DNA from: Alcanivorax sp. DSM 26293
GTDB taxonomy: Bacteria; Pseudomonadota; Gammaproteobacteria; Pseudomonadales; Alcanivoracaceae
DNA: 64,000 nt
Direction of reading: 5' to 3'
Assembly: GCF_900107995.1 (NCBI RefSeq)
Contig: NZ_FNUM01000011.1
Span: 1 to 64,000, forward strand
Shown here: one piece after another, positions 37,897 to 47,216 of the stretch
Layout: every line of letters begins with the position of its first letter
Numbering within the stretch: position 1 is the stretch's first letter
The notes under the pieces: generated by a model
Told to the model about the DNA's origin: nothing
Databases searched by the model: none
What the model saw: only the letters and a program-made list of their open reading frames with translations
Position numbers and translations under genes: made by a program

Positions 37897-37938
37897 CGTT
37901 GTTCTCCATTCCCGGGCGGGGTCATCCCCCCCCTTACC

Positions 37939-37966
37939 GTTGGAGCCTTGCTCGCAAGGCTCCAAC
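37939..37966. repeat. Short palindrome between the two acyl-CoA dehydrogenase genes
   Basis: GTTGGAGCCTTGC-TC-GCAAGGCTCCAAC is a perfect hairpin, of the same family as 30926-30999 and 39300-39372 but without the inner spacer. It lies in the 78-base gap between the genes. Confidence 0.9.
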
Positions 37967-37974
37967 AATATTGT

Positions 37975-39177
37975 TTACAACCCCAATACCGCCTTGGCGA
38001 TAATCCCGCGCTGCACCTCATTGGATCCGCCATAAATGGAACAGGCCCGCGAGTTCAGATAATGGGGCATGGCAGTGAGTGCATACTCCGGCCCGATCAC
38101 CGGCTGTTCCTCGCCGGGCACCAGGGCCTGCGGTTGCCAGATCACACTCTGGCTACCCAGGGTTTCAATGCGCAGCTCGGTGACTTTCTGCAGCAACTCG
38201 GTGCCGAGAATCTTGGTCATGGAGGACAGGGCCCCGGGATCCTTGCCGGCAGACAGGGCGGACTTGATGCGCATCTCGGTGAATTCCAGCGCCAGCACAT
38301 CCGCCTCCAGGGCGGCAAACTTGTGCTTCCATACCGGGTCTTTATTGAGCGGGCCAAAAGCGGTTTGTTGCTTCTCGGCCATCAGGCGGATCTTTTCCAG
38401 CATCACGTTCAGGCCCGGCGCATATTCCTGGCCACCACGCTCGAAGGTGAGCAGGTACTTGGCCACGGTCCAGCCGTCATTTTCCGCGCCCACCCGGTTC
38501 TTCTGCGGTACCCGCACATTGTCGAAGAACACCTGGCACTGCTCCGGCACTTCATCCAGGCCAACAATGGGCTCGATGGTGATGCCCGGCAGGTCCATGT
38601 CCAGCAGCAGGAAAGTAATGCCCTGCTGGGGCTTGCCGTCGCGGTTGGTGCGTACCAGCGCGAACATCTTGTTGGCGTAGTGGGCGTAGGTGGTCCAGAT
38701 CTTGGTACCGTTGAGGATATAGTCGTCGCCATCCTTGTCGGCAAAGGTCTTCAGGGAGGCCAGATCGGAGCCGGAGCCCGGTTCGGAATAGCCCTGGCAC
38801 CAGAAGTGTTCGCCGTTGAGAATCTTCGGCAGGTATTCCTGCTGCTGCTCCTCGGTGCCGCAACCGATCAGGCAGGGGCCACACATGTGCAGGCCCATGG
38901 GCACCAATGGCGGGGTCTCGGCTCGGACCAGCTCCTCCGCGAAGATGGCCCGCTGACTCACACTCCAGCCGGTGCCGCCGAATTCCTTCGGCCAGTGCGG
39001 CGCCGCCCAGCCCTTGTCGTTGAGAATGCGCTGCCAGGCCATGGCTTCCTTCACCGGCGCAAACACCGAGGTCACCAGCCTGCCCGCTTCCCGGATTTCC
39101 GGGGTCAGGCTCTCCTCCAGAAAGGTGCGCACCTCATCCCGAAACGCCTTCTCCTGCTCCGGCACCCGCAGATCCAT
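37975..39177 (-). CDS. Acyl-CoA dehydrogenase, subunit-type 1
   Basis: A 400-residue acyl-CoA dehydrogenase with the FAD-binding WCQGYSEPGSGSDLASL motif, NGTKIWTTYAH, and a C-terminal ACSIYGGSNEVQRGIIAKAV. In simple homotetrameric enzymes that last motif carries the catalytic Glu (YEGT); here it reads YGGS, so the base may lie elsewhere. It is the first gene of a pair; the second (36772-37896) follows after 78 bases with a palindrome between. Together with the acyl-CoA ligase and DUF2236 oxygenases nearby it suggests breakdown of a branched or cyclic acyl chain. The substrate is not known. Confidence 0.9.
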   Translation of the reverse strand: MDLRVPEQEKAFRDEVRTFLEESLTPEIREAGRLVTSVFAPVKEAMAWQRILNDKGWAAPHWPKEFGGTGWSVSQRAIFAEELVRAETPPLVPMGLHMCGPCLIGCGTEEQQQEYLPKILNGEHFWCQGYSEPGSGSDLASLKTFADKDGDDYILNGTKIWTTYAHYANKMFALVRTNRDGKPQQGITFLLLDMDLPGITIEPIVGLDEVPEQCQVFFDNVRVPQKNRVGAENDGWTVAKYLLTFERGGQEYAPGLNVMLEKIRLMAEKQQTAFGPLNKDPVWKHKFAALEADVLALEFTEMRIKSALSAGKDPGALSSMTKILGTELLQKVTELRIETLGSQSVIWQPQALVPGEEQPVIGPEYALTAMPHYLNSRACSIYGGSNEVQRGIIAKAVLGL

Positions 39178-39299
39178 ACCCTACTCCGCTGTTATCAGAT
39201 TCAGTGGACCCAGTGTACGGGAGACAAAATGAGACACTCATGACGATTCGTATCACGCCTCTGGCGAAAAGCGTCAAAGCGTCCAACCTTCCACCAACC

Positions 39300-39372
39300 C
39301 GTTGGAGCCTTGCTCGCAAGGCGAAGCTTGATGCGGAGCACGGACTTTCGCCTTGCGAGCAAGGCTCCAACG
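39300..39372. repeat. Inverted repeat upstream of ylqF (GTTGGAGCCTTGCTCGCAAGG family)
   Basis: CGTTGGAGCCTTGCTCGCAA... at the left is matched by the complement ending GGCTCCAACG at 39372, with a short centre (CTTGATGCGGAGCACGGAC). It separates the divergent acyl-CoA dehydrogenase and ylqF genes. Confidence 0.92.
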
Positions 39373-39426
39373 AGTCAACTCAGCTATAATGCGCCGATAC
39401 TTCATGCAGACAGGCAACACCCGCTT

Positions 39427-40374
39427 ATGAGCATCAACTGGTTCCCCGGCCACATGAACAAGGCCACCCGCGAAATCCGCGACATCCTGCCCAAGGTGGA
39501 CCTGATCATCGAAATCGTCGACGCCCGCCTGCCCTACAGCAGCTCCAACCCGGTGATCGAGAATTTCCGTGCCGACAAGCCCTGCCTGAAACTGCTCAGC
39601 AAAAGCGACCTGGCCGACCCAGACATCACTCAGCAGTGGCTCGACCACCTGCAAAAAGACCCCACCGTCCGCGCCCTGGCCATCACCACCCACAAACCGG
39701 AATCCATCCGCAAGCTGGCGGACCTCTGCCAGCAGATGGTCCACAAAAAGCGGGACCGGGCCACTACCATCACCGCCCTGATCACCGGCATCCCCAACGT
39801 GGGCAAATCCACCTTCATCAACACCCTGGCCGGCCGCCAGGTCGCCCGGGCCGGCAACGAACCGGCGGTGACCCAGCGCCAGCAACGCATCGAACTGGGC
39901 GGCGGCCTGATCCTCATCGACTCCCCCGGCATCCTCTGGCCGAAAATCGAAAACCGTAACAGCGGCTACCGCCTGGCCCTCTCCGGCGCCATCAAAGCCA
40001 CCGCCATGCAGGAAGACGACGTGGCCCTGTTCGCCGCCGAATACTTCATGCAGGCCTACCCGGAACAAATGAAAGAGCGCTTCAAACGCGATGACCTGCC
40101 CGAAGAAGGCGTGCCCTTCCTGGAAACCATCGGCAAACAACGGGGCTGCCTGGGCAGCGGCGGCCACGTGGACTTCGACCGCGCCGCCACCCTGCTGATC
40201 AGCGAATACCGCGGCGGCAGACTGGGCCAGCTCACCCTGGAAACCCCGGCCATGGCGGAGCAGGAGCATGTAAAGGTGGCGGAGATACGCCGGCTGAAAG
40301 AGGAGGAGAAGGAGGCGAAGAAGAGGGCCAGGAAGGCGGCGTATAAGGCGAAGGGGCAGAAGGGAAATCAGTAA
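39427..40374 (+). CDS. ylqF: Ribosome biogenesis GTPase YlqF (RbgA-like)
   Basis: Circularly permuted GTPase of 315 residues that helps late assembly of the large ribosomal subunit. The start is the ATG at 39427 (MSINWFPGHM). Motifs come in permuted order: G4 LLSKSD first (about 56-61), then G1 GIPNVGKST (about 121-129), then G3 DSPG. The C-terminus is rich in Lys, Glu and Ala (EEEKEAKKRARKAAYKAKG), which may bind RNA. It is the last core gene before the AT-richer accessory patch. Confidence 0.93.
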   Translation: MSINWFPGHMNKATREIRDILPKVDLIIEIVDARLPYSSSNPVIENFRADKPCLKLLSKSDLADPDITQQWLDHLQKDPTVRALAITTHKPESIRKLADLCQQMVHKKRDRATTITALITGIPNVGKSTFINTLAGRQVARAGNEPAVTQRQQRIELGGGLILIDSPGILWPKIENRNSGYRLALSGAIKATAMQEDDVALFAAEYFMQAYPEQMKERFKRDDLPEEGVPFLETIGKQRGCLGSGGHVDFDRAATLLISEYRGGRLGQLTLETPAMAEQEHVKVAEIRRLKEEEKEAKKRARKAAYKAKGQKGNQ

Positions 40375-40377
40375 GAG

Positions 40378-40559
40378 AGTGTCACCAATAAACTTGTCGT
40401 AGATAACTTCTAGCCCCGAGCAATCACACACCAGCGCAACAGAAGTAATTGCCCGCTCGGCATCAGACAATGCTTCGTCGTCTTCGATGTTCAGCCGGTT
40501 TTCAGGGCATCACTCTCGGGGTAACAATATCCATTCTGGACAGCCCCGTATTTATCTAT
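40378..40559 (-). pseudogene. Remnant of a Fic toxin gene, frameshifted and truncated
   Basis: Directly after the yhfG stop, the - strand reads DKYGAVQNGYCYPESDALK, then after a frame change NRLNIEDDEALSDAERAITS. This matches the start of Fic proteins (DKYG...DPYCYPGSDVLKNRLNI). The frame lacks a start codon and ends against the 3' end of ylqF, before any catalytic HPFREGN motif. It is therefore a dead 5' fragment of a Fic AMP-transferase. The last residues (about 40378-40430) no longer resemble the family. Confidence 0.75.
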
Positions 40560-40560
40560 T

Positions 40561-40746
40561 TCAGGCTTTCGCTTTAACCGGACGGCTGTGGGCAAGGACT
40601 GCTGCTTTGCGCGACGTAAATCTCACATCACCGTCCTTCACGGTGAAGCCTTCCAGGCGCAAGCTGGCCGCGTAGTTGGCCCGACGGACCCTGGCAAAAT
40701 AAGCTTTTTTTGATTCCAACGAGGGAACAGGCATAAGCACCTTCAA
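40561..40746 (-). CDS. YhfG-family antitoxin (FicA-like)
   Basis: A 61-residue protein with the YhfG/FicA-type core KKAYFARVRRANYAASLRLE (about 13-32). YhfG proteins are small antitoxins that block a Fic AMP-transferase encoded just downstream. Here the downstream fic gene is a remnant (40378-40559), so the antitoxin is an orphan if it is still expressed. The frame is open and undamaged. The 124 bases upstream are AT-rich. The family call is based on the core motif and on the remnant next to it. Confidence 0.7.
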   Translation of the reverse strand: MKVLMPVPSLESKKAYFARVRRANYAASLRLEGFTVKDGDVRFTSRKAAVLAHSRPVKAKA

Positions 40747-40870
40747 CCAATTAAGATACTGAAATTATCGCAAAAACAGACCGCCAGACTAAATTTTAGT
40801 CAAATGAAAGCTGACTTCTAGATTAATCACTAACTTTTATAAATAACGCTCGCTTCTTATCACTCTATTA

Positions 40871-43054
40871 TCAAATAACGCAAACGAACTCCCCAACAAC
40901 TCTGTAACTCAAGACCTCATCATCATTTAATATAATTGGATTAAAGCTTTCATCGTCAGAGTTGGGGCTTAATTCAATCCGTGAGTGTCTCCAACCTTCC
41001 TCATCTTCTACCTTGAAGCTTTCATATACCTTGATGGTGTACCTTGATCCAGTCTCTGCATCAACGCCATCAACACACTCAACCAATACCGTCTTTCCAT
41101 TGCGCGATCCGCCCTGGTCTTGCTGGAACAAGCAGACGGCTCCATTCGGAATAACACGGTTCATGGATTCCCCCATGACTCGGCAGGCAAACATCCCCTC
41201 TTTCAGGATCACTCCATCCGGCACAGGCACCAAACTTTCATGCTGGACATTCTGCAGATCACTGAATTCACCAGCAGCAGCCTGGAGGTCAACTAATGGG
41301 ACAGCATTCTCATAGAGGACAAGCGATTCGACATTATTATCCTGAGCAACAATCTTCCGGGGATAAGTGGGAATATATTGCTTTAAATATTCCTGGAGAC
41401 CGGGATCACATGCATAAACAAATGTACCTCTTATCCCTCTAAGCATCACAGTTCTATAGATATTGATAATATACTGCTTCAGTTCTTCTGGATCCTTAAT
41501 GCCTTGACTACCAGTACGATCAAAATAATTGGTTTTATCAATAACAATTGATTCACTCACCTTGTCATACCGAATCTCTTGACCAAAGATTATGCCTGCG
41601 TAGTTCAGGTCATATCCTTGTGTGGTATGAATACAACCGACCTCCTTGTATGAATCTTTTTTGTTAATCCAATCAGTATTGGTGCTATTCCAACGAAGGC
41701 TTACACCATCAATTTCAATATCAAATGCTTCATTATCTTTCTTTGAAGTCCATGGCCATGAATAACCGGCGACGATCCTGGAAAGCCCTGTCTCAATCTC
41801 CTTCCCCTTTATCACATCGACCATGTCACCTAAAGATTCAAAGAATTCGAACTCATAATTTTTATCGGAAAAGCGCTCCCCATGATCAAGGCGACAGTTA
41901 AGCAAGGCATCAATAAACTCAACATAAGGCTGACCAGCTTTGACTCTAAACTGGGAAAGCAGCTTGTGGGTTACCGACCCCTTAGCAGTTTTGAGGCGAT
42001 CAAAGACAGAAGAATCAGCGTCTGACGGCTTGATGGATTGCCCCTTATCGTAGAAAAAAACCGCTTTATCAGACTGTTGACAAACCCAGTCCACCTCACT
42101 GCAGGCATACTTATCCATACCCAGTGCCTCACAGCTTTTATCAAAAGTGCCAAAATAGGCACCCAGATTCTTTCTTTTCCTCAAGCGATGCGATTCATCG
42201 ACCAAGACGATATCGTAATGTTGTTTGGCAAGTTCAGCAGGACTAATCACCATCTTGGGACTCAAACCAGAGACATGCTTGAAAGCCTTCTTCAAGGTCG
42301 TCCTGAAGGATGTCATCGGAACAACAAGAGCCATACTAGGGTCAGGATTATTATTCTTGAAGTCATCGATAAGAGACTGAATCTCAGCCTCATCATCAGC
42401 AAAGTCACGAAGATCAATCTGTCTGTCGCCTTTGCTCAGTAATTTAAACAGGAATATTGCCAGAACAGACTTTCCTGTTCCCGCTCCGCCCTCAATAACA
42501 ACATTCCTGACTTCAGGGTTAAGTAACTCATACAGGATGGTAAGCAAACCCTGGCGCTGATCAAAGGAGAGAGATTTATAAGGTGAATACTTGAACACAT
42601 CAGAGTTATCGATATGGTTCAACGTTTTCGACGCCACGCCACAAGAGATCAGTGCATCCCAGACGTCCCGGAAAACCTTTTCGTAAAGATCATCTCTCTG
42701 ATAATAGTTATGGTCGGACAACCCCAGATTACCATTGAGAAGTGAGTATTTCCCATCAGCAGCCATGTACTTGATCAGCAACGACTCAACATCCAATGTC
42801 GCTGATTTATTGAAGTATTCACTAGTTATTAAATGGACAGCCGTAAGCAGTTTCTTCTCATCATGTTTTAGGTGCGTACCCATTCTGGATAGCGCATCCG
42901 TTGTCTCTCCAATGTAGGCATGCAGCTTCTTCTCATCACTAAGAACATAAACCAGAGGCCACCCACCTACAGCAAACGCATTGCTACGCAGATCATTCAA
43001 AGATTTTCCGCTGAAAGGGTAGCGTTTTATGTCTACGAGGGAGTCACTACTCAT
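40871..43054 (-). CDS. GIY-YIG / DUF2075 helicase / S24 peptidase fusion, probable defence protein
   Basis: A 727-residue multi-domain protein. N-terminus (about 30-105): a GIY-YIG-like nuclease domain with LVYVL (34-38), YIGET (47-51) and Arg57. Middle (about 155-600): a DUF2075 (Schlafen group 3-like) superfamily 1 helicase with Walker A GGAGTGKS (189-196), Walker B DESH (286-289), SQFRV, HTTQGYDLNYAGI and GIRGTFVYACD. C-terminus (about 605-727): a LexA/UmuD-type S24 peptidase domain with catalytic Ser630 (GESM) and Lys675 (YTIKVY). It is coupled by ATGA to a MazG-like gene upstream. The sequence is visibly AT-richer than its neighbours. I cannot name an established defence system with this set. 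Confidence 0.85.
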   Translation of the reverse strand: MSSDSLVDIKRYPFSGKSLNDLRSNAFAVGGWPLVYVLSDEKKLHAYIGETTDALSRMGTHLKHDEKKLLTAVHLITSEYFNKSATLDVESLLIKYMAADGKYSLLNGNLGLSDHNYYQRDDLYEKVFRDVWDALISCGVASKTLNHIDNSDVFKYSPYKSLSFDQRQGLLTILYELLNPEVRNVVIEGGAGTGKSVLAIFLFKLLSKGDRQIDLRDFADDEAEIQSLIDDFKNNNPDPSMALVVPMTSFRTTLKKAFKHVSGLSPKMVISPAELAKQHYDIVLVDESHRLRKRKNLGAYFGTFDKSCEALGMDKYACSEVDWVCQQSDKAVFFYDKGQSIKPSDADSSVFDRLKTAKGSVTHKLLSQFRVKAGQPYVEFIDALLNCRLDHGERFSDKNYEFEFFESLGDMVDVIKGKEIETGLSRIVAGYSWPWTSKKDNEAFDIEIDGVSLRWNSTNTDWINKKDSYKEVGCIHTTQGYDLNYAGIIFGQEIRYDKVSESIVIDKTNYFDRTGSQGIKDPEELKQYIINIYRTVMLRGIRGTFVYACDPGLQEYLKQYIPTYPRKIVAQDNNVESLVLYENAVPLVDLQAAAGEFSDLQNVQHESLVPVPDGVILKEGMFACRVMGESMNRVIPNGAVCLFQQDQGGSRNGKTVLVECVDGVDAETGSRYTIKVYESFKVEDEEGWRHSRIELSPNSDDESFNPIILNDDEVLSYRVVGEFVCVI

Positions 43055-43371
43055 AGGTCTGTATACTTCTTGGCTGTACCCTTCGCCTTGTTAACAGGGT
43101 ATTTCAACTCATTCTTCCTGATTTTTTCCAACACGATCTCGCTGATGTCCAGGTCATAGCTATCTGCCAGCAGAAAGGCATAGGCCAACACATCTGCCAG
43201 CTCTTCTTTTACTTTCCCAACATCAGCATCTTCGGATGATTTCCATAGAAAAACTTCCAGTAACTCTGAAGCCTCAATACTGAGAGCCAAAGAAAGATCT
43301 TTTGGATTATGAAATTGCTTCCAATCCCTTTCATCACGAAATTGGCGCAGCTTCAAAATTACGTCTTTCAT
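43051..43371 (-). CDS. MazG-like nucleotide pyrophosphohydrolase
   Basis: A 106-residue all-helical MazG/dCTPase-type protein that hydrolyses nucleoside triphosphates to monophosphates. The metal-binding residues are Glu33, Glu36, Glu57 and Asp60 (EASELLE ... EELADVLAY). Its stop overlaps the ATG of the fusion helicase (ATGA), so the two are made together. An AAGGAG-type site precedes the start. The pair resembles defence islands in which nucleotide-degrading enzymes accompany a nucleic-acid sensor, but the joint role is inference. Confidence 0.88.
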   Translation of the reverse strand: MKDVILKLRQFRDERDWKQFHNPKDLSLALSIEASELLEVFLWKSSEDADVGKVKEELADVLAYAFLLADSYDLDISEIVLEKIRKNELKYPVNKAKGTAKKYTDL

Positions 43372-43465
43372 ATTTAGTCCTCAATCTCCTTCGACTGGCC
43401 AAGCAAGTATGCAATCTGTCTTTACCAATCACTTTATGGGAAGCAATTCACAATAATGAACCAAG

Positions 43466-44635
43466 TTAGGTTCTACCTGCCTGCTTTTCACGAAAATGTT
43501 CTCTGTGATGATTTAGATACTGCTGGTGACTATCATCCAACTTGACCACCATATCCTTATGAATACCTAGCTTTCCTGGATCTTCCAGGTGACTGGAGAT
43601 CAGGATGCGACCACCCCTGTCAAAGCTGATTAACTGCCGATCAAATACCTTATCCAAGTTCGGAACCAGCAACAGGCCATTGTAGGGATCCAGGCGCTCC
43701 TTGTTATCTGCCTCTCGCCAGGGCTTTATGTGAGAAGCGATGAGCAGGCGTACATCCGGATATTGGGTGATAGCGCAGCCGCGCCAGTAGCCCACCAGTC
43801 CCTCCCTGAACTTGCCGTGACCGAGACGAGTGGTCCGCAGCGTGCTGCGCTCGGTTTCTGACAAGGTCTTATCGTTATCCAGATCGGCCAGGTCGTTGGT
43901 CAGTTCATAATCCGTGGCGTCTTTCAAAAACTGGCCGTACAGACGCAGGGCAGCACTGTACATACCGTGGCCGGTATCATCTTTGACCTGGAAAGCAGGT
44001 TGGCTTTCGATGTGTTTACTGAGCTGCTGGTATTGTTCCACCGAGCCTACATCAAAGAAGGATTCGATCAGTGCCCCTTCGCTCTGCAGCAACTTCGGCA
44101 GGGTGTTATTCAGTGCCCCGGCGTAGCTTTTGATGGTGCGCTCGCTTTTGCCAATGGAGTCGGCCCAGTGGGAAAAGTGTTTGCGCCGATCCTGGAGATT
44201 GGCAAACAAGGCTGCTTCAATTTGCGGCTGCATGGCAGGATCCCGGAACAGGTTGAATAACGGTGTATCCAGCCACGCATAGTCGATCAACTGCGGTGTT
44301 GACCGGGGGCCCGGGGCTTTATGGTCTCTTACCCGCCGTTCGTACTCTTCTTCCTTTCCGGCGACAGGCTTGTGGTGCCAAAAGCCGGATGAGCGCAAAT
44401 AAAAGTACGGAAACTCTGGGTTGTCCCGGTCATTGTCTTGCTTCAACCGCTCAAAGCGTTTTGTGAATGCCTGCCTGAGGGACTCATTGAAGAGAATCCG
44501 GTTCTCTTTCAGGGTGCCGGCACGGATCAGATCCAGCACCGCCAACAACAGGCACACCTTGTGAGGGCGCGGCCGGTCCTTGGTGCGATCCATACGCAGA
44601 CTGCTGAGCTGGTCCAGGTACTGGGCGGGGGTCAT
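43466..44635 (-). CDS. HNH endonuclease, restriction-like
   Basis: A 389-residue protein with a C-terminal HNH nuclease domain (about 285-345): CAITQYPDVRLLIASHIKPW, then DPYNGLLLVPNLDKVFD. The N-terminal two thirds hold no motif I recognise; RPHKVCLLLAVLDLI near the start occurs in several HNH restriction-type proteins. The ATG overlaps the HIT gene's stop (ATGA). Base use is closer to the core genome than that of the next two genes. It likely cuts foreign DNA; the specificity is unknown. A 94-base gap separates it from the MazG-like gene. Confidence 0.85.
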   Translation of the reverse strand: MTPAQYLDQLSSLRMDRTKDRPRPHKVCLLLAVLDLIRAGTLKENRILFNESLRQAFTKRFERLKQDNDRDNPEFPYFYLRSSGFWHHKPVAGKEEEYERRVRDHKAPGPRSTPQLIDYAWLDTPLFNLFRDPAMQPQIEAALFANLQDRRKHFSHWADSIGKSERTIKSYAGALNNTLPKLLQSEGALIESFFDVGSVEQYQQLSKHIESQPAFQVKDDTGHGMYSAALRLYGQFLKDATDYELTNDLADLDNDKTLSETERSTLRTTRLGHGKFREGLVGYWRGCAITQYPDVRLLIASHIKPWREADNKERLDPYNGLLLVPNLDKVFDRQLISFDRGGRILISSHLEDPGKLGIHKDMVVKLDDSHQQYLNHHREHFREKQAGRT

Positions 44636-45024
44636 TGTTCACTCCAGTAATCTGCCTGATCCGGCTTCACCCAACGCACACCTCCTCTGGGATCGTCGCT
44701 GTCCCCCTGATAGCGGGGAATGATATGGCAGTGCATGTGCGGGACGGTTTGGCCGGCTACTTCGCCGCAATTCATACCGATGTTGTAGGCATCCGGAGAA
44801 TAGCGCTGGTCCAGCCAGGTTTTTGCCTGGTTGATCAGCTGCATGACGGCGGCCTGCTCCTGCTCGGTAAGGCAGAACCAGTCGTTGGCGTGGCGTTTGG
44901 GGATGACCAGCAGGTGGCCGGGGGAGACGGGGAATTTGTCCTCTCGGACATAGGCCAATTCGTTATGCATTGCTGTGCCATTTCCCAGTGCGTCTGGCAC
45001 GGCACAAAATGGGCAATCCGGCAT
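44632..45024 (-). CDS. HIT-family nucleotide hydrolase
   Basis: A 130-residue histidine triad protein with the catalytic HMHCHIIPR motif and the family N-terminus MPDCPFCAVPD. HIT proteins hydrolyse or transfer nucleotides from AMP-linked substrates. The start is the ATG at 45024 with a GGGAG site; a longer frame to 45096 lacks support. It overlaps the HNH endonuclease gene by four bases, so it leads an operon that may run through the MazG-like and helicase genes. HIT proteins are often housekeeping, so its link to the defence-like genes may be accidental. Confidence 0.92.
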   Translation of the reverse strand: MPDCPFCAVPDALGNGTAMHNELAYVREDKFPVSPGHLLVIPKRHANDWFCLTEQEQAAVMQLINQAKTWLDQRYSPDAYNIGMNCGEVAGQTVPHMHCHIIPRYQGDSDDPRGGVRWVKPDQADYWSEQ

Positions 45025-45611
45025 TAAGCTCCCCTGTTCTTTGCCCAGGTACTCCCTACCTGAAAGCTGTTCATTCTTATGTGAGAACCATATCACAAGA
45101 CATAAACGCTACCAGATTATCTTACCCGCTTTTTCGTATTTGGCTGACTTAGATTGTCGCGATTTGCGCATGACAGGGGTGATTAAGGGAGAATGAGATC
45201 GCGCCGCGAGCGACGCTCCTACGACGAGGCTGGAAGCCGGCATGAGAGACACTTCACCCATAAGGCGGCGACCTCAGCAGCAATCAATGTCGAAAGAATG
45301 GCAAAATTTCGACATGGTCAGCCGGTATGTCGATTGAATCAACATCCGCTAAGCGCTTAGCTGTCGCAAATTCTGCGACAACCGGATCGAAGAGTTACGC
45401 ATTTTTTAACGAAAACCGAGGCCTTTGCGGCCGATTTTGAGATTTTGCGGGGGAAATAATGAGGCTTTCTTAACGTGGGCGTTTCGCACCTCGAGAGGTG
45501 TTATTCGCTGCGCTCACCCTGTGGGCCGCACGGAACGACGCGCGTTACTCCGCTACGCTCCGTTCCTACAGCAGGATTAGCCTTTGGCGGAGCCGCCACA
45601 TTTCCAGGCAC
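45025..45611. other. Gene-free stretch rich in small inverted repeats
   Basis: No protein or RNA gene is supported. A lone TGTAGGAGCG-family arm lies at 45199-45223. Small inverted repeats follow: ATGTCGAAA/TTTCGACAT (about 45287-45317), GCTAAGCGCTTAGC (45348-45361) and TGTCGCA-AATTC-TGCGACA (45362-45380). The left part must hold the HIT gene promoter. The right part is the former downstream flank of tRNA-Pro. The inverted repeats could be protein-binding sites. Confidence 0.5.
45199..45223. repeat. Single arm of the TGTAGGAGCG repeat family
   Basis: TCGCGCCGCGAGCGACGCTC (and CTACG) matches the right arm of the repeat at 25970-25995 with one change. No partner arm is seen nearby. Confidence 0.75.
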
Positions 45612-45645
45612 AAAAAAGCCCGGCTGTTTCCAGCCGGGCTTTTTT
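45612..45645. terminator. Bidirectional terminator, originally of tRNA-Pro
   Basis: AGCCCGGCTG-TTTC-CAGCCGGGCT is flanked by six A and six T bases. It lies 11 bases downstream (- strand) of the tRNA-Pro 3' end, where it ended the tRNA transcript before the island was inserted. Confidence 0.92.
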
Positions 45646-45655
45646 GTATCTCGAT

Positions 45656-45700
45656 TGGTCGGGACGGGAGGATTCGAACCTCCTACCCCTTGCACCCCAT
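45656..45700 (-). other. Island attachment site: 3' part of tRNA-Pro (anticodon GGG)
   Basis: On the - strand this reads ATGGGGTGCAAGGGGTAGG, then the T-arm GGAGG-TTCGAAT-CCTCC, the acceptor 3' strand CGTCCCG, A and CCA. It is the 3' part of tRNA-Pro(GGG), from the anticodon loop to CCA. Past 45700 the expected stem bases GCAAG are replaced by AAAGG, so tRNA identity stops at the anticodon loop. That is the classic crossover of tRNA-targeting integrases. The integrase gene starts 175 bases away and reads outward. The full tRNA-Pro should be rebuilt at the island's other end, beyond the window. Confidence 0.88.
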
Positions 45701-45782
45701 AAAGGTTACAGCTTGTCCGTCGCCGTCCAACAGAATCTACAAACCATTAAATATCAGTAAGTTAGTTAAAAATACATCTTTG

Positions 45783-45861
45783 CATTGTCCAACAACGTCC
45801 ACTAGAATCCACCGAAAGCGATTGAGAAACGGTGACGGAACGGTGACGGAACGGTGACGAG
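45783..45861. promoter_or_regulatory. Candidate arm sites of the island integrase
   Basis: The 11-base unit CGGTGACGGAA is repeated in tandem at 45830-45840 and 45841-45851 with a partial third at 45852-45861, just before the integrase start. Upstream, two copies of a GATTCT...TGGAC...GGACA motif occur on the - strand (about 45700-45740 and 45782-45814). Such repeats are typical integrase-binding arms, possibly also repressing its promoter. Confidence 0.5.
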
Positions 45862-45875
45862 ATTTCGGAGCATAC

Positions 45876-47216
45876 ATGGGCATCATCACAGATAGACACC
45901 TCACTCCAAAAGAGCCCAAAGATGCCTGGCTAACCGAAGACGGCCCACGTGGGCATGGTCGATTCATGGTCAGACTTCAGCCAAACGGGAAGCATCTCTT
46001 CTACTTCCGTTACAGTGACCAGACAGGTAAACGCCAGTTTCACCCGCTTGGAGTTTACTCACGCACTGGCACCACCGGGCTCACTCTCAAGCAAGCCCGC
46101 ACCCAAGCCAGCGAGTTATCGCGGCTCTACGTCTCAGGCATCAAGAACATTGGAGAGCACCTTAACTCAGAACGGGCCGCTCGAGAGGCCGCTAGGCAAG
46201 CAGAGCTATCACGCCTTGAGCAAGAAGCGGCACAAAAAGAGGCCGAGGCCGCTGCACTGGCTTCTCGGCAAACCGTTTCCCAGCTCTTTGAGCGATGGAT
46301 GGAAATTGACGTGTCACACCGGAAAGACAAGGGTACAGAAGTCCGGCGCATGTTCGAGAAGGACGTTCTCCCCCTCATTGGCCAAGTCTTTGTCGCAGAC
46401 ATCCGTAAAGGGCACATCACTCAGGTGACAGATGCCATGGCGGCACGGGGTGTCACCCGCATGGTGAAAGTCGTATTCAGCCTGATGCGACAGATGTTCC
46501 GCTTTGCCGTGGACCGAGACATCATTGAATTCGACCCCAGCAGCAGTATTCGGAAAGCCAAAATCGGAGGTAAGGAGACTGAACGTGACCGAGTGCTATC
46601 CGAGGACGAGATTCGACAACTGACAAACGCCCTACCCTCTGCCAACCTGCTGAAAACCTCTGAATTGGCTGTCTGGATAGCACTTTCCACCTGTTGCCGC
46701 ATTGGTGAACTTCTGGCGGCACGCTGGGAGTATATTGACCTAGAGCAAAGAACTTGGCTTATTCCTGCCGAAAACAGCAAGAACGGCAAGCCTCATCAAG
46801 TACACCTGTCAGCCTTTTCTGTCAGTTTCTTCCAACAGCTGCAGGAAATGACAGGCCTGTCCCCATGGTGCTACCCGAACAGAGCGGAAACCGGCCCTCT
46901 CTGCTCAAAAACCATAACCAAGCAGCTTTCTGACCGACAGCGCCCGTCAAATAGTGGCACCATGAGCAATCGCACTAACAACGCGCAAGCTCTTTGTTTA
47001 CCCGGTGGCAAGTGGACACCTCACGACCTTCGCAGAACCGGCGCAACCATGATGACCGCTCTAGGCGTACTTCCTGAAGTCGCAGAACGCTGCCTGAACC
47101 ACACCGAAGAAAATAGGGTTAAAAGGACCTATCAACGCCATAGCTATACCAAGGAATGCAGCGAGGCTTGGGAGAAATTGGGCTCCCGGCTCCAGGATCT
47201 GACAGAACCAAGATGA
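45876..47216 (+). CDS. P4-type tyrosine integrase of the tRNA-Pro island
   Basis: A 446-residue site-specific recombinase. It has a DUF4102-type N-terminal arm-binding domain (1-95), a charged coiled linker (95-130), a core-binding domain and a catalytic domain with Arg275 (CCRIGE), His383 and Arg386 (HDLRR), His409 (LNH) and Tyr419 (TYQRH). The start has a GGAG site. It lies immediately inside the tRNA-Pro attachment site and is read into the island, so it is the enzyme that put the island here. It differs clearly from the integrase at 449-1807, although the architecture is the same. The gene is intact, so excision may still be possible. Confidence 0.95.
   Translation: MGIITDRHLTPKEPKDAWLTEDGPRGHGRFMVRLQPNGKHLFYFRYSDQTGKRQFHPLGVYSRTGTTGLTLKQARTQASELSRLYVSGIKNIGEHLNSERAAREAARQAELSRLEQEAAQKEAEAAALASRQTVSQLFERWMEIDVSHRKDKGTEVRRMFEKDVLPLIGQVFVADIRKGHITQVTDAMAARGVTRMVKVVFSLMRQMFRFAVDRDIIEFDPSSSIRKAKIGGKETERDRVLSEDEIRQLTNALPSANLLKTSELAVWIALSTCCRIGELLAARWEYIDLEQRTWLIPAENSKNGKPHQVHLSAFSVSFFQQLQEMTGLSPWCYPNRAETGPLCSKTITKQLSDRQRPSNSGTMSNRTNNAQALCLPGGKWTPHDLRRTGATMMTALGVLPEVAERCLNHTEENRVKRTYQRHSYTKECSEAWEKLGSRLQDLTEPR

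Follow-up and report, generated by a model that had tools for sequence, protein, structure and literature searches.

Why should a nuclease-helicase carry the self-cleaving domain of a LexA-type repressor at its end? The question is raised by a two-gene locus of Alcanivorax sp. DSM 26293, which we analysed within the first 64,000 nucleotides of contig NZ_FNUM01000011.1 (the whole stretch is hereafter the window). One gene (40871..43054, minus strand) encodes a 727-residue protein in which a GIY-YIG nuclease, a Schlafen-group-3 (DUF2075) helicase and an S24/LexA-type module follow one another; the other (43051..43371, minus strand) encodes a 106-residue MazG-like pyrophosphohydrolase. An earlier note on this DNA had described the threefold fusion, which its open reading frame, Pfam matches, homologues and conserved catalytic residues confirm. 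We regard it as an even call that the S24 module is a portable, DNA-damage-triggered self-cleavage device on restriction motors, and that it serves the window enzyme as an off-switch within a two-gene defence cassette.

The S24 module (residues 576-727; 40874..41329, minus strand), delimited by Pfam, alignments and Foldseek matches to LexA, retains its cleavage machinery. The catalytic residues Ser630 (41165..41167) and Lys675 (41030..41032), which the earlier note had read as being in place, are each present in 41 of 41 aligned S24 copies. That note gave no cleavage bond; our alignment predicts it as Ala594-Gly595 (41270..41275; all three features on the minus strand), which lines up with the Ala-Gly of phage repressors and precedes Ser630 by 35-36 residues. 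Ala594 is found in 41 of 41 copies and Gly595 in 40 of 41, the exception being a threonine in locus L186. The 41 copies come from host proteins of six kinds, with one further host protein ended by the contig (L029). They include L164, L186, L242 and L243 and leave out the duplicates L126 and L127, a 235-residue repressor-like weak match (L033) and a degenerate copy (L244); several are near-identical relatives and thus not independent. Aligned together with viral-contig phage repressors (34 rows in all), the sequences show no variation at the Ala-Gly, Ser and Lys positions. The degenerate copy (L244:3531-3860) has an internal stop and has lost the catalytic serine.

A model of the domain agrees with the S24 assignment. 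Built by AlphaFold from the 34-row alignment, it has a predicted local distance difference test score (pLDDT) of 80.8, with the cleavage loop (model residues 17-24) below 50, and its fold is that of LexA, the top match in the PDB by Foldseek (probability 1.00, E-value 5e-6). LexA bound to the RecA filament, lambda repressor and UmuD are also matched, and a PDB sequence search with the S24 profile gave nothing at 0.01. Because the module resembles LexA, we predict that RecA filaments would stimulate its cleavage, so that it would be able to cut itself in their presence; genes for RecA and ClpX are carried by the window genome. The domain might instead serve dimerisation or docking, or sense a phage protein rather than RecA, self-cleavage being incidental. 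The C-terminal domains of LexA and CI are generally known to dimerise, and L186 retains its domain despite the lost glycine; nonetheless, so strict a retention of Ala, Gly, Ser and Lys (40-41 of 41 copies) would be unexpected for docking alone, and we hold such a role to be quite unlikely.

The module also occurs on other restriction proteins. It sits at the C-terminus of type I HsdR in three loci (L028, L080 and L242), and in a fourth (L146) it occupies residues 68-225, where it interrupts the HSDR_N domain of an EcoEI-type HsdR adjoined by HsdM and HsdS. Elsewhere it is joined to a 1981-residue helicase whose best PADLOC match is DruE3 (1e-117) and which lies two genes away from a type IIG/DrmMI-like methylase (L145), to a type III Res adjoining its Mod methylase (L186), and to an HNH_4 protein (L243). 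The Mod and Res-S24 genes of L186 (1574-6432) lie on a viral contig, and this copy, with its cleavage glycine replaced by threonine, may not self-cleave; the HNH_4-S24 gene (L243:7283-8956) directly follows an open reading frame resembling an IS30 transposase. In a tree of 37 fusion S24 domains and 14 phage repressors, which does not include L186, L242 and L243, the 37 form one clade separate from the repressors (support 99/99), and L028, L080, L145, L146 and L029 group together (100/99). These sequences show the S24 module on several unrelated restriction motor classes and suggest that it is portable. The idea of a new two-gene system therefore stands only in part: the pair is conserved, but its S24 module is common to HsdR, Res, DruE-family and HNH proteins. 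With the module on other restriction proteins, the question becomes one of a portable switch on restriction enzymes rather than of a new two-gene system.

The spread of the module was followed with profile A1, made from the C-terminal S24 domain, and a broader profile, A5, in phylum, order and class samples that overlap and each count the window genome. A1 matched 6 of 398 genomes in the phylum sample, one of them (G352) with a weak repressor-like match, and located the module in 24 of the 390 genomes sampled from the order; in the order of G299 it matched 2 of 78 genomes, both known before. A5 matched 9 of 369 genomes in the class sample, one with a degenerate copy. Among viral contigs, A1 gave one strong match (L080) among 46 loci, the others being weak, and A5 gave one further strong match (L186) among the matches listed, which cover at least 57 loci. 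Plasmid searches with three S24 queries each returned a single record, a Halomonas megaplasmid.

That S24 was added to restriction enzymes already complete is best supported by comparison with homologues that lack the module. A Ketogulonicigenium plasmid HsdR of 1012 residues is 77% identical to residues 14-1022 of L080 and then stops; the S24 part of L080 begins at about residue 1045, past the end of that match. A cyanobacterial plasmid HsdR-like protein is 75% identical to L146 over residues 235-563. Where it reads TEVSAQMADGGRGRADYVLLD, L146 has TEVLAP, about 170 extra residues with S24, and then GRADYVLLD. The cyanobacterial gene is itself short (378 residues) and ends at an insertion sequence (IS) element. 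The insert is also missing from an intact homologue in Methylococcus, which is 39% identical to L146 over residues 236-744. Taken together, these two homologues indicate that S24 entered a loop ahead of the nuclease catalytic motif in L146. In L173 (1069-6051), the HsdR gene of a conjugative plasmid comes after an AAA ATPase gene and one annotated as a 'retron system putative HNH endonuclease'.

What kind of motor, then, does the module accompany in the window? Pfam places the helicase (SLFN-g3_helicase, or DUF2075, PF09848) at an E-value of 7e-60 and Peptidase_S24 at 4e-6, over its cut-off. The helicase domain spans residues 185-550 (41405..42502, minus strand), and the Walker motifs that had been called intact are so: all 25 aligned homologues, plasmid-borne Bacillota relatives among them, retain G192, G194 and K195 of Walker A as well as D286 and E287 of Walker B. 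The GIY-YIG domain (about residues 32-110; 42725..42961, minus strand) scores slightly short of its Pfam cut-off (E-value 3e-4, 21.4 bits against 22.6), which two distant homologues, L036 and L038, reach. In the same alignment Y36, Y47, G49, R57, H61 and E90 are kept in 25 of 25 sequences and N107 in 24, and this constellation of Tyr, Tyr, Gly, Arg, His, Glu and Asn is what we take to be the GIY-YIG catalytic motif. The assignment is secured because these residues are kept across homologues.

A full-length AlphaFold model from a shallow alignment of nine sequences has a mean pLDDT of 51.2, with the GIY-YIG and S24 parts below 50, and bears neither for nor against these two folds. The homologues show two types of N-terminal nuclease, GIY-YIG in proteins of about 730 residues and a PD-(D/E)XK-like domain in proteins of about 795. 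The latter is a putative assignment read by eye, and Pfam gave no PD-(D/E)XK match in three proteins of this type (L011, L032 and L035). A scan of viral contigs with the whole-protein alignment returned 95 pattern stretches and zero relatives, and a PDB sequence search with the whole-protein profile returned nothing at 0.01.

The 106-residue partner is placed by Pfam (PF12643, MazG-like, E-value 1e-19), by conservation and by a PDB sequence search, in which its nearest solved structures are a pyrophosphatase (4qgp, 3e-21) and dCTP pyrophosphatase 1 (6sqw, 5e-19). All 33 aligned open reading frames, the duplicates L126 and L127 among them, retain its acids E33, E36, E57 and D60; ExxE...ExxD is presumably the motif of DCTPP1/MazG-like pyrophosphohydrolases. 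The two genes overlap by ATGA, the fusion start lying over the MazG stop as the earlier note had it. The pair also recurs in other genomes, where that note had proposed to count it. MazG lies directly ahead of the helicase gene in 8 of 8 close-relative loci, those of Marinobacter and Nitrincola (71-75% identity) and of an uncultured bacterium (54%, without the S24 part). Across the S24-bearing Schlafen-group-3 helicases, it lies within 200 nucleotides on the same strand in 30 of 32 loci, several of which are near-identical relatives and hence not independent. The 30 include two short MazG frames, of 65 residues in L031 and 87 in L035; in L035 the S24 part sits in a different frame. The near-identical L139 and L140, from one genus, have a PD-type helicase-S24 protein and no MazG in the fetched stretch.

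MazG may stand before or after the fusion gene, and this variable order argues for a functional tie beyond mere shared operon descent. The association extends in part to relatives without S24: the 577-residue L009 has a MazG, and L027 has a 44-residue MazG-like stretch only. Among eight plasmid or gut-contig relatives, MazG is adjacent in L038, L040 and L042 and not in L034, L036, L037, L039 and L041. Ordinary SLFN-g3 proteins of the class (L046-L053 and L056-L058) have no MazG or S24 match within flanks of about 1.5 kb. L038 adjoins genes annotated HsdS and HsdM; on this Ligilactobacillus plasmid (L038:3391-7928) the order is HsdS, HsdM, a small open reading frame, the GIY-YIG/helicase gene and MazG, an arrangement that looks as if the helicase-nuclease had taken the place of HsdR. 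L042 is flanked by an MrcB_N protein on one side and by genes annotated HsdM and HsdS on the other.

By analogy with DCTPP1, the partner could remove dCTP or modified dCTP, either starving phage synthesis or keeping modified cytosine out of host DNA, and nucleotide-pool cleaning is as likely as depletion. The idea that modified cytosine is kept out is worth testing because MrcB_N genes are neighbours on two plasmids (L034 and L042).

How might such a cassette work? In the mechanism that we propose, the GIY-YIG and Schlafen-group-3 motor and its DCTPP1/MazG-type pyrophosphohydrolase would together form a restriction-type cassette. When DNA damage gives rise to RecA filaments, the S24 module would cut its own chain at Ala594-Gly595, parting the motor from the S24 domain and leaving a motor that ends in Ala-Ala. 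The LexA cleavage fragment has such an end, and ClpXP destroys it. A motor with a like end might suffer the same fate, so that the enzyme would be off while host DNA is repaired, a built-in form of restriction alleviation. Precedents for both halves of this scheme can be found. Two papers describe type I restriction alleviation as the destruction of HsdR by ClpXP (PMC4231737, PMC11109961), and two others describe ClpXP degrons hidden beside the cleavage site of LexA-like proteins (PMC10584840, PMC5742171). More broadly, a mobile LexA-like cassette on unrelated motors may let restriction respond to DNA damage directly through the protein itself, with no transcription involved, a hard-wired restriction alleviation to which we give slightly less than even chances.

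An off-switch is in our view the most likely direction of the switch, though with a probability of only about half. One argument for it comes from L146, whose predicted cut at Ala86-Gly87 would sever the nuclease domain on the N-terminal side of its catalytic motif and leave an N-terminal fragment of 86 residues; a cut that splits the nuclease favours an off-switch. Another comes from the cut end: the residue before the cleavage alanine is itself alanine in 39 of 41 S24 copies (the exceptions being L146 and L186), as against 17 of 45 phage repressor records, which are not independent. A conserved Ala-Ala end fits destruction better than release.

Cleavage might conversely switch the enzyme on. 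The S24 domain would then hold the nuclease-helicase inactive, or dimeric, until RecA filaments raised by phage triggered a UmuD-like cleavage that frees the active enzyme, while MazG starved the phage of deoxynucleotides. That S24-less homologues end near the predicted cut, that the domain is an add-on to enzymes already complete and that UmuD is among its fold matches all speak for this alternative. However, it leaves the insertion within the L146 nuclease domain unexplained and suits the Ala-Ala end less well, and type I enzymes, as is generally known, are normally prevented from attacking host DNA by its methylation and require no activating step. We consider this direction unlikely, though deserving of serious thought.

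The off-switch proposal has to be weighed against several observations that do not favour it. In the C-terminal grafts the cut product resembles the S24-less homologues (the 577-residue L009, and L173), so cleavage could equally free an active enzyme. Conservation of Ala-Ala may reflect mere ancestry within one clade, and the Ala-Thr of L186 suggests that self-cleavage may be lost in one or more copies that look intact. Upstream of the genes, in 18 regions that represent part of the loci, there are 24 near-matches to LexA boxes (at most 2 mismatches) where base shuffles lead one to expect 22.2. This lack of excess fits control at the protein level and equally fits the absence of any SOS link. 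Finally, when 123 neighbour proteins (124 open reading frames less one antisense frame) were compared with PADLOC, 173 families matched some of them and none matched more than 3 proteins, a weak statistic with no control set.

This last result, together with the housekeeping genes that adjoin some loci (the glycyl-tRNA synthetase beta subunit accounts for 5 of the 123 neighbours), would suit a pair that is not a defence system at all and instead serves DNA repair or the nucleotide pool under damage control. Such a role seems to us very unlikely. The module is patchy, as the order sample shows, and is also carried by HsdR and Res; some relatives adjoin HsdM/HsdS or MrcB_N genes on plasmids; and the window pair lies in AT-rich DNA, in a slot that holds type I genes in 3 of 7 sibling regions. 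Nearness to defence genes, which the earlier note had proposed to count, is found in that slot; among the neighbour proteins at large, defence genes are few.

The slot itself extends from the YlqF gene to a tRNA-like 3' end (40362..45610, no strand assigned) and was defined by comparing seven of 16 sibling regions. The YlqF gene is present in 17 of 17 genomes of the genus. The block as a whole is shared by L164 at 89% nucleotide identity and missing from L169 and L170, where the slot is empty, with about 120 nucleotides between the borders. L165, L166 and L167 have type I restriction genes there instead: PADLOC finds REase_I (4e-272), MTase_I and Specificity_I in L166, the same three in L167, and MTase_I and Specificity_I in L165. 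The content of L168 could not be called. The far border is seen as the tRNA side in L166 and as a related integrase in L167, and the stretch from L165 covers the YlqF side only. Base composition sets the block apart, as had been noted: guanine-cytosine content is 43-47% at 41-44 kb and 57-66% over 28-40 kb. The tRNA-like 3' end (45610-45700) was recognised by eye, and ARAGORN found no complete tRNA there; it is followed by a tyrosine integrase of 446 residues (45610-47216 in all), which probably belongs to a second island with its start at this tRNA.

Two further genes of the block lie outside the unit. Pfam identifies an HNH_2 nuclease of 389 residues (43466..44635, minus strand), in agreement with the HNH nuclease reported nearby, and a HIT-family protein (44632..45096, minus strand). 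The ATG of the former overlaps the stop of the latter (43466-45096). The N-terminal part of the HNH_2 protein weakly matches NF045808 (phosphorothioate-DNA restriction; 9e-11, far under the cut-off), and the HIT protein weakly matches PADLOC ThsC2 (8e-13). A four-gene operon of HIT, HNH, MazG and fusion was rejected, as tblastn gave no HIT or HNH match in L002-L009 with flanks of up to 10 kb; HIT and HNH are present in one of seven sibling regions (L164). Beside the fusion gene, at 40400-40746, a small YhfG-type open reading frame (40561-40746) and a decayed fic remnant were seen by eye. Farther off (37900-39390), an intergenic string is repeated (LARKA...SPCEQGSN in several overlapping open reading frames) and may be a REP-like element.

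Our proposal touches on the old question of how restriction systems spare their own host when its DNA is damaged. If it is true, a self-cleaving module on HsdR, Res, DruE-family proteins and helicase-nucleases would answer it directly, as a solution arrived at several times, and would amount to a new regulatory layer of bacterial immunity. The window pair would also become a candidate defence system of two genes, with a partner of DCTPP1 type, and would illustrate how nature puts large enzymes under a damage-controlled switch. The presence of a LexA-type module on several restriction motor classes is the more general finding.

The earlier note knew of no named system with this exact set of parts, and PADLOC-DB 2.0.0 (2023) indeed contains no covering model, giving no full match for the fusion and none for MazG. 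Among the open-access papers listed, judged by titles and the starts of abstracts, none is about the pair or about S24-fused restriction enzymes; subscription papers and bioRxiv mostly lie outside that search. The available text of PMC12839542, on Schlafen RNases in BREX, does not mention S24, MazG, GIY-YIG or DUF2075, and that of PMC12984324, on the LexA superfamily, does not mention helicase, restriction, fusion or nuclease. Among PADLOC entries, the helicase part matches Nhi and AbiO (E-value about 1e-11), though with partial cover (Nhi 192-373 of 470, AbiO 131-370 of 468) and with the GIY-YIG and S24 parts unmatched. Two PADLOC candidates without description also match in part, PDC-S14 to the GIY-YIG part (1.5e-7) and PDC-S41 to residues 4-295 of L032 (2.9e-17). 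The MazG partner is akin to the DCTPP1/RS21-C6 dCTP pyrophosphatases (5e-19), a likeness by sequence only, and differs from them as the operon partner of a nuclease-helicase. With type I restriction the window protein shares a motor, a nuclease and the same genomic slot, and the S24 module is found on true HsdR in L028, L080, L146 and L242. Its immediate neighbours (HNH_2, HIT, YlqF and the integrase) include no HsdM or HsdS, whereas its relative L146 has both. Alleviation of EcoKI, a type I enzyme, uses ClpXP and depends on a degron for which published work has looked without success, and the accessible part of that account does not mention an S24 domain (PMC4231737). With LexA, UmuD and phage CI of the S24 family, the window module shares the fold, the Ala-Gly bond, the serine and the lysine; here, however, the S24 domain is joined to nuclease-helicases rather than to a DNA-binding repressor, and its response to RecA is a prediction drawn from that resemblance.

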